Assembly (NCBI GenBank): GCA_900473795.1
Contig: UCMT01000028.1
Span: 1 to 64,000, forward strand
Origin: Hyphomicrobiales bacterium
Lineage (GTDB): Bacteria > Pseudomonadota > Alphaproteobacteria > Rhizobiales > Rhizobiaceae
Direction: 5' to 3'
DNA: 64,000 nt
Shown: positions 6,479 through 15,466 of the stretch, piece by piece
Position numbering within the stretch: position 1 is the first letter of the stretch
Layout: the number at the start of each line of letters is the position of its first letter
Notes under the pieces: generated by a model
Seen by the model: only the letters and a program-made list of their open reading frames with translations
What the model was told of the DNA's origin: nothing
The model's database searches: none
Position numbers and translations under genes: made by a program

Positions 6479-7087
6479 ATGAGCCACGCATCCTACGAGC
6501 TCAAGGCCGAAACGCGCGAACGGGTTGGTAAGGGGTCCTCCCGTGAACTTCGCCGCAACGGTCTTATTCCTGCTGTCATCTACGGCGACAAGCAGGCTCC
6601 GATTTCCATCGCCCTTTCCACGAAGGAAGTCACCCAGAGAATTCACGCCGGTGGTTTCATGACCACGATCGCCACCATCGAGGTTGGCGGCGAGAAGATC
6701 CGCGTCCTGCCGAAGGACTACCAGCTGGATCCGGTCCGTGACTTCACCATGCATGTCGACTTCCTGCGCGTGTCCAAGGACTCCAAGGTCACCGTTGAAG
6801 TTCCGGTTCACTTCGTCAACGAAGAAAAGTCCCCGGGCCTCAAGATCGGCGGCGTTCTCAACATCGTTCGCCACGAAGTCGAAGTGTTGGTTTCCGCCGA
6901 CGACATTCCGGAATTCCTGACAGCCGACCTCTCCGGCCTGAAGGTCGGTGACGGCATCCACATCTCGAACATCAAGCTTCCGAAGGGCGTGACCCCGGTC
7001 ATCGCCGACCGCGACTTCACGATCGCCACCATTGCCACCCCGGCCGGCGGCGTATCGGAAGCAGAAGAAGAATCCGCGTCCGAATAA
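6479..7087 (+). CDS. rplY: 50S ribosomal protein L25, Ctc (TL5) form
   Basis: The 202-residue product is the long general-stress-protein Ctc form of L25, which binds 5S rRNA in the large subunit. The N-terminal L25 domain (about residues 1-95, with [16 protein letters not shown] and PAVIYGDKQ) is followed by the C-terminal TL5 beta-domain (about 96-190). The tail is acidic, ending [10 protein letters not shown] ribosome-binding site AGAAAGG precedes the ATG. A clear terminator follows at 7114. In rhizobia rplY, pth and ychF lie close together; here other genes have come between them. Confidence 0.97.
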
Positions 7088-10560: not shown

Positions 10561-11274
10561 ATGCTGATTTTCGCAGGGCTCGGCAATCCTGGCCCCCAAT
10601 ATGCAGGCAACCGCCACAATATCGGTTTCATGGCCGTCGACGCGATCCAGCGGCGGCACGGTTTTTCGCCCTGGTCCAAAAAGTTCAAGGCGCTGATCTC
10701 GGAAGGCGAGATCGGCGGTGAACGCGTGCTTCTGATGAAGCCGCAGACCTTCATGAACCTGTCTGGCGAGGCGGTCGGCGAAGCCATGCGCTTCTACAAG
10801 CTGGAGCCGAAGGACATCCTGGCGATCTATGACGAACTCGACCTCATTCAGGGCAAGGCCCGGATCAAGACCGCGGGTGGCCATGGCGGCCACAACGGCA
10901 TCAAATCGCTCGACGCCCATTGCGGCAAGGACTATCGCCGCCTGCGGCTCGGCATCGGCCATCCCGGCTCGAAGGAACAGGTACACAACCACGTGCTCGG
11001 CGATTTCGCCAAGGCCGACCGCGTCTGGCTGGAACCTTTGCTCGACGCGCTCGCCGACAATGCGGCGATGCTGGTCAAGGGCGAGGATTCGCAGCTCCTG
11101 AACAAGCTGGCGCTCGCCACCGGAGCCAAACCGGAGCCGGAGCCGGCACCAGTCAAGCCCGCCGGAAAGTCGCATATCCGCCAGGCCCGCAACAGTGCCC
11201 AGCCGAAAACGCTGCCGACAACCGGACCGATGGCCGACATGCTGAAGAAGCTGTTCGGCAACAAGGGCGAATAG
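10561..11274 (+). CDS. pth: Peptidyl-tRNA hydrolase
   Basis: Pth cleaves peptidyl-tRNA released from stalled ribosomes. The chosen start at 10561 ([14 protein letters not shown]) gives 237 residues. The catalytic histidine is in the N-terminal motif [27 protein letters not shown] and [11 protein letters not shown] are conserved substrate-binding loops. The core is standard, about 190 residues. A further, basic C-terminal tail of about 45 residues, rich in Pro and Lys, follows, as is common in alphaproteobacteria. A GNAT gene begins 3 bp after the stop, so the two are probably cotranscribed. Confidence 0.97.
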
Positions 11275-11277
11275 CCG

Positions 11278-11739
11278 GTGGCGGCCGGTAACTTCGCCAT
11301 CCGGCCTGCGAAGGCTAGCGACCTATCCGGGCTGCTCGCGCTCTACCGGCAGCTCAATGCCGACGATCCGGCGCTCCCTTCCGGTCTTGCCGCCGAAAGG
11401 TTCGCCGAGATACTGGCTCATCCCGGCATGACGGTCTTCATCTCCGTTTCGGCAGAAACGATCACGTCGTCGGTGGCGCTGAGCATCATTCCCAACCTCA
11501 CCCGCGGCGGCAAGCCCTATGCGCTGATCGAAAACGTCGTGACCGACGCCCGGTTTCGCAAGCGCGGCCATGCCGGGGCGCTGATCCGGCACGCCTTTGG
11601 GCACGCCTGGCAGAAGGGCTGCTACAAGGTGATGCTCCTGACCGGCTCGCAAGACCCGGCGACGCTGAAATTCTATGAGGGCTGCGGCTTCGTGCAGAGC
11701 AAGACGGGTTTTCAGATCAGGCGGCCGACCGGCATCTGA
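11278..11739 (+). CDS. GNAT-family N-acetyltransferase
   Basis: A 153-residue single-domain GNAT protein with a GTG start that follows the pth stop by 3 bp. The acetyl-CoA loop is readable as RFRKRGHAGALIRHAF, and the C-terminal half has the usual LLTGSQDPATLKFYEGCGF pattern. The substrate is unknown. Cotranscription with pth might suggest a translation-related target, but that is speculative. It is convergent with clpS and shares no intergenic space with it. Confidence 0.85.
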   Translation: MAAGNFAIRPAKASDLSGLLALYRQLNADDPALPSGLAAERFAEILAHPGMTVFISVSAETITSSVALSIIPNLTRGGKPYALIENVVTDARFRKRGHAGALIRHAFGHAWQKGCYKVMLLTGSQDPATLKFYEGCGFVQSKTGFQIRRPTGI

Positions 11740-12051
11740 CTACTCCTCCGGTTCGGTCGTGAACATCAGCGGAAACCCCGCCTCCTTGCCGAGATCGGTC
11801 GCCTCCTTGGCCTTGCTCTCGGCTATATCCTTCGCGCAGACGACGATGACACACACCCCGAGCTTGTGCGCGGTCATCATCATCCGGTAGCCGGTCTCCT
11901 CGCTCATCCGAAACACCGCCTTCAACACCATGATGACGAATTCGCGCGGCGTATAGTCGTCGTTGAGAAGAATAACCTTATAAAGCTTCGGCCTCGCCAG
12001 CTTCGGCTTGGTCTTCGTTTTCGGCTTGAGGGTGGTGTCGTTGTCACTCAT
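11740..12051 (-). CDS. clpS: ATP-dependent Clp protease adaptor ClpS
   Basis: A 103-residue N-end-rule adaptor that delivers substrates to ClpAP. The core is complete: KVILLNDDYTPREFV, the M..A/H-rich helix MMMTAHKLGVCVIVVCAKDIAESKA, and the C-terminal KEAGFPLMFTTEPEE. The N-terminal tail is lysine-rich (KPKTKTKPKLARPK). Rhizobia usually carry two ClpS paralogues. This copy is not beside clpA, which would fit the ClpS2-type paralogue, but paralogue assignment needs a tree. A clpP paralogue is also in this window, at 45304. Confidence 0.93.
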   Translation of the reverse strand: MSDNDTTLKPKTKTKPKLARPKLYKVILLNDDYTPREFVIMVLKAVFRMSEETGYRMMMTAHKLGVCVIVVCAKDIAESKAKEATDLGKEAGFPLMFTTEPEE

Positions 12052-12383
12052 CTGGATATCCTCTCAAAAAACAAAGAGGGCCGGCGGAGGATGATTTCAA
12101 TCCGGCGATATTTGCACCGCCGGGAACGCCGTTCAAGTACGGGCCGCTGTGGCAACGATGACACGGCCGGCAGTTTACACCCGCAGGCGCATTCGCGAAG
12201 GGTTGCAACCCATGCGGTTTCGCGTATACCGCGGCCAGATTTTATCGAGACAGGGAGCCGACAATGATTGCAGTCATTTCAGCATGCCCCTCAGGGGCAC
12301 AGGCCTAGTCAGCGTATTCGCTGCCGAGGGCCAAGGCGCCGGCCATTTGGCCGGACGATTTACCCTGTCTTCGGAAGATCTCC
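12052..12383. other. 332-bp intergenic region upstream of rtcB2
   Basis: The region lies between divergent clpS and rtcB2. It contains a 14-codon reading frame at 12264-12308 with a GGGAG-like site upstream, which I do not consider a proven gene, and short GC-rich palindromes (for example CGGCCATTTGGCCG near 12340). No tRNA or recognised riboswitch is visible. A specific operator for damage-induced expression of rtcB2-prfH could lie here but cannot be named. Confidence 0.4.
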
Positions 12384-13601
12384 ATGGGCAATTCCATAAG
12401 GGACGCTGGTCCCGACAACGCAGTGCGCGGCATCTCCGCGGCTGTGTCTCACTACTTCACGGCCAAATCCTGGATCGAGGGTTCGGCACTTCAGCAACTG
12501 GCTGACCTGGCAGAACTGCCGGGCATGCTTTCCATCGCCGGTTTTCCGGATCTTCATCCCGGCAAATACGGTCCCGTCGGTATGGCGGCGCTTTCGACCC
12601 GGCTTTACCCGCAACTGATCGGCAACGACATCGGCTGCGGCATGGGCTTTTTCGAGCTCGACCTGCCGCTGCGCAAATTCAGGATCGACAAGGCGGCAGA
12701 CGCCATGCGGCAACTCGAAGCGCCGGCTCTAGACCAGCCGGAGAGGACTGCAGCGGGTGATGCACGCTCGCTGATCGCCACCGCAAACCCGTTCGGCACG
12801 ATCGGCGGCGGCAATCATTTCTGCGAAATCCAGGCGGTCGAAGACCTGCTCTGCCCCGAAGCGTCCATGCATCTGGACAGGCAGAAAATCTACCTGCTCG
12901 TTCACTCCGGATCGCGCAATCTCGGTGCGAATGTCTTTGCCGATACGCTCGCAGCCACCCCTTCCCTCGCGGACGGCCTCGATTCGTCGTCGGATGCGGG
13001 CATCGGCTGGCTGCGGCTTCACGATCTCTGCGTCGACTGGGCCGCGATCAATCGGCAAGTCATCGCGGATCGCGTCGCAGCACTTCTTCGCGCCGATGTC
13101 CGGCTGGTCGCTGATGTCCCGCACAATCTCGTGCGCGCCACGGCGGAGGGCTTTGTTCACTACAAGGGTGCAGCCGCGGTGACACAGGGCAGCATCGCGC
13201 CCATCGCCGGATCGCGGGCAAGCCTCAGCTATATGGTCGAACCGCTTGCGGGGGCAGCAAGCTCCCATTGGGCGATCTCGCATGGTGCCGGACGCAAATA
13301 CGACCGGCGCAACATGCATGGGCGCACCGGCAACACCCGCAGCGAACGCGAGGGGCTGTTGCGTAATGCCTGGGGCGGCATCGCCATCTGCGACGATCGC
13401 CGGCTCGCGGTCGAAGAGGCAGCCGGCGCCTACAAGAATGCCGCCCAGGTGGTGGACGACCTGGCAGGCCATGGCCTCGTCCGTGCGCTTGCGGCGATGA
13501 AGCCGCTCATCACCTACAAGAAGGTGGAGGTCGATCACGACGAGGCCAAACGGGACAAGGGGCGCGAGCGCCGCCTGGAACGGAGGCAGAAGCGTGGTTG
13601 A
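12384..13601 (+). CDS. rtcB2: RtcB2-type RNA ligase of the RtcB-PrfH ribosome repair pair
   Basis: This 405-residue protein is a complete RtcB ligase, which joins 2',3'-cyclic phosphate (or 3'-phosphate) and 5'-OH RNA ends using GTP and Mn2+. The signature residues are present: [12 protein letters not shown], Asp82 and Cys85 in NDIGCGM, Asn144-His145 in GGGNHF, His174 in HSGSRNLG, His247 in VPHNLV, and the guanylated His300 in SHGAGR. Its length and its 8-base overlap with prfH identify the RtcB2 class, shown to religate 16S rRNA cut in the decoding centre by ribotoxins. A GGAAG site lies 8-12 bases before the ATG. The C-terminus is highly basic ([13 protein letters not shown]). Confidence 0.93.
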
Positions 13602-14211
13602 CATTCACCTCCTGGCGACCACCGGAAACGGCCCGGTCGAATGCCGCATCGCGCTGAAGTCACTTCTGGCGAGCCTGAAAGCCGAGGCTGAGGCGGTCGG
13701 CTGCACATTCGAGGCGACGGCTGCCCGTGCTCCCGATGCACATGGGCCGGCGTCGGCCATCGTCACGATCAGCGGTGACGGCGCTACCATGCTCGCGAAG
13801 GGGTATTGCGGTTCCATCCGCTTCATCTTCAAGAGCCCGGTACGGCCGGGTCACAAGCGGCAAAACTGGTTCGTCGGTGTCCGTCCGGTCGAACTCGCCG
13901 ACAATCCGCAGGACGCCGGAGCCCCCGATCCGCGCGATATCCGCTTCGAAACGCTGCGCGCCGGCGGGCCGGGCGGGCAGCACCAGAACACCACCGACAG
14001 CGCCGTGCGGGCGACGCATGTTCCGACCGGCGTCACGGTCATCTGCCGTGACGAACGCTCGCAGCACCGCAACAAGGCGACGGCCATCCGCCGGCTGCAA
14101 ATGGCGCTGCAACTGCTTGTCGAGCGGCAGGCACGCAACGCAAAGACGGCGCTCTTTCTCGCCAACAAGGAACTGGAGCGCGGCAATGAGGTGAAGGTGT
14201 TCCGCCTGTGA
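13594..14211 (+). CDS. prfH: Peptide chain release factor homologue PrfH
   Basis: A 205-residue release-factor-like protein that starts with GTG inside the end of rtcB2 (8-base overlap, CGGAGG upstream), so translation is coupled. It keeps the peptidyl-tRNA hydrolysis motif GGQ at residues 127-129 in [21 protein letters not shown]. It lacks the long N-terminal region and the stop-codon-reading domain of RF1/RF2, as expected for PrfH. PrfH hydrolyses nascent peptide from ribosomes stalled because the decoding centre is damaged, allowing RtcB2 to repair the rRNA. A strong hairpin follows the stop. Confidence 0.94.
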
Positions 14212-14217
14212 GATGGC

Positions 14218-14240
14218 TGCGCCCGGCCATGCCGGGCGCA
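14218..14240 (+). terminator. Perfect 10-bp hairpin after prfH
   Basis: TGCGCCCGGC and GCCGGGCGCA form a perfect stem around a 3-base loop, beginning 6 bases after the prfH stop. The following bases (GTTTCCC) are only weakly T-rich, so termination may be partial. Confidence 0.6.
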
Positions 14241-14362
14241 GTTTCCCGGCGCCTCATGCGGCAAATCCGGAAAATACGCCGCCGTACCGCCGCAAGACTT
14301 GACCATATCACCCCCTTCCCCCATAGGCAGGGCAAAGTTCTTCAAGATATGGACAAGGTGCC

Positions 14363-15466
14363 ATGGGTTTCAAATGCGGTATCGTCGGACTGCCGAATGT
14401 CGGCAAGTCCACTCTCTTCAATGCGCTCACCAAGACGGCGCAGGCTCAAGCCGCGAACTATCCGTTCTGCACCATCGAGCCGAACACCGGCGAAGTGGCG
14501 GTGCCCGACCCGCGCATGCGCGCGCTTGCCGATATCGCCAAGTCGAAGGAACTGATCCCGACGCGCATCTCCTTCGTCGATATCGCCGGCCTCGTGCGCG
14601 GCGCCTCGAAGGGTGAAGGACTTGGCAACAAGTTTCTCGCCAATATTCGCGAGGTCGATGCGACGGTGCATGTGCTGCGCTGCTTCGAGGATGACGATGT
14701 CACCCATGTCGAAGGCCGCATCAATCCGGTCGGCGATGCCGAAACGATCGAGACAGAGCTGATGCTCGCCGATCTCGAAAGCCTCGAGCGCCGCACCGAG
14801 CAGACGCGCAAGCGCGCCGCCTCCAAGGACAAGGAATCGATGACGCTGCTGCCGGTCATGGACGCAGCCCTGAAGCTGCTTCAGGACGGCAAGCCGGTCC
14901 GCACGCTGCTGTCGACGCTGGATGCCGAAGAAAAGAAAATCCTGCAGGGCCTGAACCTTCTGACCGCCCACCCGGTGCTCTACGTCTGCAACGTCTCCGA
15001 GGGTGATGCCGTCTCCGGCAACGCCCACACCAAGGCGGTCGAGGAGATGGCGAAGGCGCAAGGCGCTGAAACCGTCGTTATTTCGGCTGCGATCGAATCC
15101 GAAGTTGCGCAGTTGCCGGAAGAGGAGGCCAAGGAATTCCTCGAGGCGCTCGGCCTTCATGAAGCGGGTCTCGACCGGCTGATCCGCGCCGGCTACAAGC
15201 TGCTCGACCTCATCACCTATTTCACCGTCGGCCCGAAGGAGACGAGGGCGTGGACGATCGAGCGCGGCACCAAGGCACCGGGTGCGGCCGGCGTCATCCA
15301 CTCGGACTTCGAGCGCGGCTTCATTCGCGCCAACACCATCGCCTATGACGACTATATCGCCTTCAACGGTGAAACCGGCGCCAAGGAAGCCGGCAAGGCG
15401 CGCGACGAAGGCAAGGAATATGTCGTCCAGGACGGCGACGTGATCCACTTCCGCTTCAACACCTGA
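14363..15466 (+). CDS. ychF: Ribosome-binding ATPase YchF (Obg-like)
   Basis: The 367-residue product is full length for YchF/OLA1, a translation-associated P-loop protein that binds ribosomes and prefers ATP. Motifs are GLPNVGKST (Walker A, residues 10-18), the [22 protein letters not shown] switch region (split by the G3 motif), a coiled-coil insertion around 130-200, and a C-terminal TGS domain ending [11 protein letters not shown] possible sigma70 promoter (TTGACC, 17 bp, CATAGG) lies at 14299-14327. The gene sits in the rplY-pth-ychF neighbourhood seen in many alphaproteobacteria. Confidence 0.97.

Follow-up and report, generated by a model that had tools for sequence, protein, structure and literature searches.

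The closest described relatives of the locus studied here are an operon of Escherichia coli and a regulated gene pair of Pseudomonas aeruginosa. In E. coli, RtcB2 and PrfH act in a fixed order, rescue first and then repair, as established in PMC9223846. An earlier note on the DNA analysed here had taken peptide release followed by rRNA religation to be established for such pairs, and for E. coli this is true on the evidence of that paper, whose main text contains none of the terms 'leader', 'uORF' or 'attenuat'. In P. aeruginosa, PA5470 (prfH) lies behind the RtcB-like gene armZ (PA5471), whose expression is tied to ribosome impairment by PA5471.1, a leader peptide of 13 residues that responds to ribosome-targeting drugs (PMC12057347, PMC13041342, PMC3516279). 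A review among these regards the control of an anti-repressor by a leader peptide as apparently unique to MexXY. Accounts of the mechanism of PA5471.1 differ, favouring either transcriptional (PMC12057347, PMC13041342) or translational attenuation (PMC3575510). The stretch that precedes prfH/ykfJ in E. coli is one of the top hits of a riboswitch screen (PMC4448311), and the word 'leader' does not occur in the text of PMC1586002. In the literature examined we found neither a leader upstream open reading frame (uORF) of an rtcB2-prfH operon outside Pseudomonas, of which an earlier mention is possible, nor an explanation of how the rRNA-repair pair senses ribosome damage.

The window encodes a member of the RtcB2-PrfH system

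The stretch of DNA that we analysed (the window) comprises 64,000 nucleotides and is contig C20 of a 6.39 Mb genome from the Rhizobiaceae (UCMT01000028.1). On its plus strand are two open reading frames, both open and overlapping by 8 bases: rtcB2 (12384–13601, 405 aa), encoding an RNA ligase of the RtcB family, and prfH (13594–14211, GTG start, 205 aa), encoding peptide chain release factor H. Both products exceed the NCBIfam cut-offs of their families, RtcB2 with 292.7 bits against TIGR03073 release_rtcB (cut-off 271.8) and PrfH with 181.3 bits against TIGR03072 release_prfH (cut-off 166.65); against the equivalog NF007153/PRK09588, RtcB2 scored 366.3 bits, under the cut-off of 407. In line with the catalytic residues that the earlier note had claimed, RtcB2 has the motifs NDIGCG (D82, C85), GGNH (N144, H145), VHSGSR (H174), PHN (H247) and SHGAGR (H300), which we equate, in part by alignment, with the catalytic residues of P. 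horikoshii RtcB. PrfH likewise carries the GGQ attributed to it, at residues 127–129. It fits the definition of the family, a GGQ release factor without the N-terminal domain encoded directly 3′ of rtcB2, and its top PDB match is chain 8 of 7sa4, a peptide chain release factor H. This gene order was found in 26/26 loci and, in another check, in 25/25.

In a tree of 51 RtcB proteins, the window's RtcB2 falls inside a single clade of 30 RtcB2 rows (support 100/99), and the genome's other RtcB homologues, L002 (G000:C29, 502 aa) and L004 (G000:C79, 473 aa), fall outside it. The tree carries warnings of long branches, L002 among these, and L115 is absent from it; because L175_0, labelled RtcB2, is a mis-picked paralogue, the RtcB2 label needs two changes. 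The reading frames, the NCBIfam cut-offs and the tree together confirm the overlapping RtcB2-PrfH pair that had been proposed. A grouping with housekeeping RtcB had been named as the outcome that would speak against it; the protein sits with the prfH-linked RtcB2 proteins instead. It does not group with canonical RtcB proteins in the tree, as a housekeeping RtcB would. L002 and L004 belong to other RtcB subfamilies.

The pair is a further member of a known system, and is not new in itself. By analogy with E. coli, its role in the repair of 16S rRNA cut at the decoding centre is putative. The earlier note's suggestion that the strain meets colicin E3-like toxins is conjectural: the E3-like toxin domain PF09000 had no match in the 26 genomes of the genus (0/26), but control genomes gave no match either, which makes this zero uninformative. 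Downstream of prfH, a hairpin on the plus strand (14218–14240) appears terminator-like by eye and is retained in the deletion scar of a relative, G005 (see below); it is absent from the list of the terminator scan.

The pair is patchily distributed and has been lost from close relatives

Around the pair are pth (about 10561–11274), a GNAT gene (11278–11739), clpS (11740–12051, minus strand) and ychF (14363–15466); an rplY-like ORF (6479–7087, named by eye) is separated from pth by 3.5 kb that holds other genes. The earlier note had read this neighbourhood as functional evidence. However, in the pair-less genomes of the genus (20 of 21 examined) pth and ychF are in place in 20/20 and clpS in 19/20, and because they keep their places where the pair is missing, we regard all three as housekeeping neighbours.

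Matches to TIGR03073 above cut-off occurred in 5/26 genomes of the genus, 21/394 of the family and 11/398 of the phylum, and PrfH exceeded its cut-off in the same 5/26 genomes of the genus and in 11/247 of the family. All five carriers of the genus have the pair at one common site, between clpS and ychF, with RtcB2 proteins 80–82% identical to the window's; in two genomes of genus g85 (L091, L092) it is located between pth and GNAT. An RtcB2-like match (E 1e-30 or better) was present in 32/72,556 plasmid records, some of them chromosome-sized, and the loci of five of these 32 were examined. Given these counts, the differing sites and the plasmid matches, we conclude that the pair is patchily distributed and has changed places over long periods. 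Among phage records, 246 had a PrfH match, none of which reached 60% identity; in 10 the match spanned 80% of the query or more.

Several individual loci have features of their own. One genus carrier (L115 / L084, G020:C88) has a TGA inside rtcB2, with leader and prfH apparently intact, and the rtcB2 of G020 may be decaying. On a Shinella plasmid (L172, 1–5825), rtcB2-prfH is preceded by a further gene of the RtcB family and by one annotated as encoding an RNA-binding protein, possibly as a larger RNA-repair island. A Skermanella plasmid (L174) has rtcB2-prfH near an annotated polynucleotide kinase-phosphatase and no uORF under the rule described below. On a Klebsiella IncC plasmid typed as conjugative (L171), rtcB2-prfH has its own uORF and adjoins annotated qnrA6 and sul1.

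YchF is 99% identical to the window's in three genomes, G005, G007 and G018, and the pair is found in none of them. In G005 and G007, alignment of the clpS-ychF gap with the window breaks off at 12166 and resumes from 14196; the resumed alignment starts within the last codons of prfH and continues through the hairpin 3′ of the gene. Had these two genomes simply lacked an insertion, the final part of prfH would not be there, and we conclude that approximately 2.03 kb was deleted, and that, as judged from these alignments, the pair is lost by deletion in G005 and G007. The earlier suggestion of a variable insertion is thus right in that the locus is variable (5/26 genomes), but 'insertion' is wrong at least for these two, which carry the scar. 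Scar alignments covered six of the 20 pair-less loci, among which G018 (L096), L103, L105 and L107 showed no scar; L096 aligned poorly to both window flanks. When the empty clpS-ychF gaps were searched in translation for traces of the two genes, none emerged (best E 0.24 and 0.79). In many pair-less relatives (L096–L101 and others) the sequence upstream of ychF is by eye unrelated to the window's, and so the gap appears changeable in itself. Two pair-less loci, L106 and L109, have gaps of 836 and 842 bases with related sequence that is not rtcB2/prfH; by eye, this may be another small gene pair.

A structured leader with a conserved uORF precedes rtcB2

The earlier note had dealt with 12384–14211. 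Just outside these coordinates, the stretch before rtcB2 is by eye better conserved than the remaining gap, and minimum free energy (MFE), covariation and a covariance model point to a structured leader RNA at 12241–12386 on the plus strand, on which all elements described here are located. It is preceded by a weak promoter-like element noted by eye, TTGCAA-16-TATACC (12203–12230), whose TTG and TAT columns are kept in alignment A1 and which is absent from the list of the consensus scan. Within the leader is a uORF of 14 codons, MIAVISACPSGAQA (12264–12308), which is preceded by a Shine-Dalgarno (SD) sequence and conserved before rtcB2: kin have MTDIISARPSRAQA, MKSTASSRPLGAQA, MTQSISLRPLGLRG and MTCISLRPHGLSV, the Bradyrhizobium version reads MT..SRRPVEGIA, and that of the E. 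coli plasmid is MTNPLSMTLCRPFQD.

We scored uORFs by a rule framed after the leaders had been seen: an ATG, 9–22 codons, an SD, and a stop 60–170 nt before rtcB2. The rule was satisfied in 45/48 loci, the misses being L180, L166 and L174; as L191 is a piece of L121, this becomes 44/47 distinct loci. Eight repeat loci had been dropped beforehand and L167, at a contig edge, was dropped from the remaining 49. Starts of rtcB2 were picked by motif, with corrections by hand or from annotation for L128, L171, L174, L181 and L190. Shuffled sequences satisfied the same rule in 4.4% of cases, stretches upstream of ychF or clpS in 2/46, and stretches upstream of other long ORFs in 12/450. These loci are related and not independent draws, so that tests on them overstate independence.

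The window's leader folds with an MFE of −65.8 kcal/mol (z −5.12), and three relatives gave z of −4.28, −2.79 and −4.13. Helix P1 joins 12246–12255, which reaches the GGG of the uORF SD, to 12363–12372, which abuts the likely rtcB2 SD seen in the sequence (GGAAG, 12373–12377). Hairpin P2 (GCCCC/GGGGC, 12286–12298) is inside the uORF and has 85.7% of its cells paired; it showed no two-sided changes in 14 leaders and so has no covariation support of its own. The outer part of helix P3 (12303–12331) lies across the uORF stop and its pairs show two-sided changes, while the inner part is 98.5% paired. In hairpin P4 (12339–12354), 92.9% of cells are paired and two pairs have two-sided changes. Across the 14 leaders, the 29 pairs are 86.6% standard. 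Two-sided changed cells numbered 23 versus 9.0 in shuffles (0/500), pairs with a two-sided change 8 versus 4.9 (6/500), and further pair types 22 versus 19.1 (25/500); slid controls were lower than observed.

With the MAFFT columns taken as they are, pairing in P1 amounts to only 75.7%. Placed by hand with at most one gap a strand, a procedure that leans towards structure, it keeps a single register across 19 leaders with its letters changing. We also used an alignment-free test that matched the 5′ strand of every leader either to the 3′ strand of the same leader or to those of strangers: over 15 lineage representatives, own partners gave −11.36 and permuted partners −8.62 kcal/mol, with 0/20,000 permutations as low. 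Against shuffled 5′ strands, the z of P1 is negative in 27/27 leaders of the family, weakly so (z above −1) in six of them (L115, L119, L120, L181, L186 and L187). P1 is unsupported in Bradyrhizobium, where z is positive in 5/5. The uORF SD pairs instead within the uORF itself, with its final codons, in the plasmid leaders of E. coli and Klebsiella (L170, L171) and in two leaders of the same phylum from another class (L164, L165; z −2.4 to −3.4 in these four); for this pairing L161–L163 gave z of −1.6 to −1.8 and L160 near 0. RNAalifold (A2) proposed a pairing of the uORF SD with GCCCC within the uORF, which we rejected as unsupported against shuffles in the 27 family leaders (z −0.61 to +1.67); over the 15 representatives it reached p of about 0.04, a signal that comes from those outside the Alphaproteobacteria.

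Searched against the genus (26 genomes), a covariance model of the leader (R1) recovered all five carriers plus a single match at chance level (G025, E 0.097). In 297 genomes of the family it gave eight matches, seven in carriers plus G097, with 10 candidates scored a genome (120 in the genus), so that absences in the family are not exhaustive. The G097 match (L203, 30.3 bits), which precedes a Dps-like ORF named by eye, we attribute to chance: its ATG is followed by TAA, leaving no uORF. Of 15 given loci, the model matched seven, including L203, with an E of 1 or better, and since divergent leaders went unmatched it describes one branch. No Rfam family fits the leader; six sub-threshold Rfam matches at 12000–14500 are located elsewhere than the leader and look like chance. 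The E. coli leader stretch is present in 5343/5426 complete genomes, 2282 of them with at least 80% of the query, and no annotated uORF underlies the eight matches listed.

The leader is predicted to switch when ribosomes are held at the uORF start

When a ribosome footprint at the uORF start was held unpaired in folding calculations, the rtcB2 SD region became more likely to be unpaired in 27/27 family leaders. The rise in unpaired probability averaged 0.243 versus 0.016 in shuffles (27 leaders), and exceeded the shuffle mean in 26/27 (Wilcoxon 3e-8, a value that ignores kinship). Without a ribosome, closure of the region barely exceeds that of shuffles (mean unpaired 0.39 versus 0.42), which may mean that the P1 lock leaks or that the folding is too coarse. 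In another design, with longer flanks, opening greater than 0.05 occurred in 22/27 family leaders with the footprint at the start and in 4/27 with it at the stop; L123, L182 and L093 opened less with the ribosome at the start. Of 16 leaders of other groups, four opened with the footprint at the start and four with it at the stop. From these counts, a switch is predicted for the family and for ribosomes that become stuck early.

The fullest explanation that we can offer, and one that we consider fairly probable, is that this chromosomal RtcB2-PrfH operon is gated by a leader-peptide attenuator. Sequence comparison supports the pair, the leader, the uORF and the covarying fold, and we infer the switching. 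At rest P1 would be closed, the SD strand of the uORF being paired with the strand that abuts rtcB2's, and rtcB2 would be poorly translated, as would prfH, coupled to it via the 8-base overlap. Normal ribosomes would finish the 14-codon uORF and P1 would reform. Ribosomes that start the uORF yet become stuck, whether through cleavage of their decoding centre or through a drug that jams them, would remain over the start, where they would occupy the P1 5′ strand and expose rtcB2. PrfH could then free the stuck peptides and RtcB2 religate the 16S rRNA, steps established for E. coli. If this is true, damaged ribosomes would switch on their own repair.

The fold could instead belong to a transcription attenuator, in which transcription ends ahead of rtcB2, at a terminator or through Rho, once the uORF has been completed, unless a stalled ribosome keeps this from happening. 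This is the model most often proposed for Pseudomonas PA5471.1 (PMC12057347, PMC13041342), and it would suit the E. coli and Klebsiella plasmid leaders and those of some phylum relatives, in which the uORF SD pairs with its own last codons and not with the rtcB2 SD, and in which C/U-rich stretches are seen by eye 3′ of the uORF. In the window's leader, however, a simple scan of the plus strand found no intrinsic terminator-like site, and the P1 5′ strand coevolves with the rtcB2 SD strand, which leaves this mechanism unlikely here, if still a serious competitor. We give less credence to feedback control in which RtcB2, PrfH or another protein binds the folded leader and the uORF is secondary: the several covarying helices are more than a plain attenuator needs, but the uORF is retained in lineages with differing folds, and we think this reading improbable. 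Least credible is a leader with no regulatory role, conserved through common descent of a recently shared segment, for while the five genus carriers do share one site and RtcB2 proteins 80–82% identical to the window's, recent descent explains neither the two-sided changes across genera nor the uORFs that also precede RtcB2 genes only 36–50% identical to the window's.

Comparison with known systems

The E. coli ATCC25922 operon (PMC9223846) has the same two genes as the window in the same order. Leader-like DNA exists in E. coli as well, but the pairing of its uORF is unlike that in the window. PA5471.1-armZ-prfH shares more with our locus, in that a short leader ORF is followed by an RtcB-like gene and then by prfH; the window has such a short SD-preceded ORF before its RtcB gene (12264–12308). 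In the accounts of Pseudomonas, the leader couples impaired ribosomes to expression, which resembles the switch predicted here, and induction by ribosome stalling is in the window a prediction from folding. The two also differ. Pseudomonas ArmZ doubles as the MexZ anti-repressor, and its leader, approximately 250 bp upstream, is mostly described as a transcriptional attenuator in the literature consulted. The window's uORF, by contrast, ends 75 nt before rtcB2, a covarying helix links it to rtcB2's SD strand, and the simple scan detected no intrinsic terminator between leader ORF and gene.

We read the leader as a probable ribosome-jam sensor common to the repair operon, which in the Rhizobiaceae would act through a translational lock. 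A broader proposal joins these systems: RtcB2-PrfH operons of Proteobacteria would as a rule be under a ribosome-sensing leader uORF, the Pseudomonas armZ leader would be one instance of an old arrangement and its efflux link a later borrowing, and the Rhizobiaceae leader would be a translational lock opened by a ribosome stuck at the uORF start. For this joint proposal, we judge the balance to tilt only slightly in its favour. Should the leader indeed act as the sensor, the signal would be the damaged ribosome, with no need of a receptor; work on colicin E3 repair would then be tied to work on MexXY control, and the prediction would be that across many Proteobacteria rRNA repair is induced by jammed ribosomes.

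In translational attenuators of the erm type, stalling of a ribosome within a short leader ORF uncovers the downstream ribosome-binding site, and the drug is sensed via the nascent peptide. The window's leader is predicted to resemble these in that a stalled ribosome on the leader ORF would expose a downstream site; it is unlike them in that opening is here predicted to depend on a ribosome placed over the start of the uORF, and in that the genes controlled repair the ribosome. Set beside these systems, the new part of the locus appears to be the leader of rtcB2-prfH, for which a conserved ribosome-sensing switch is our best reading.
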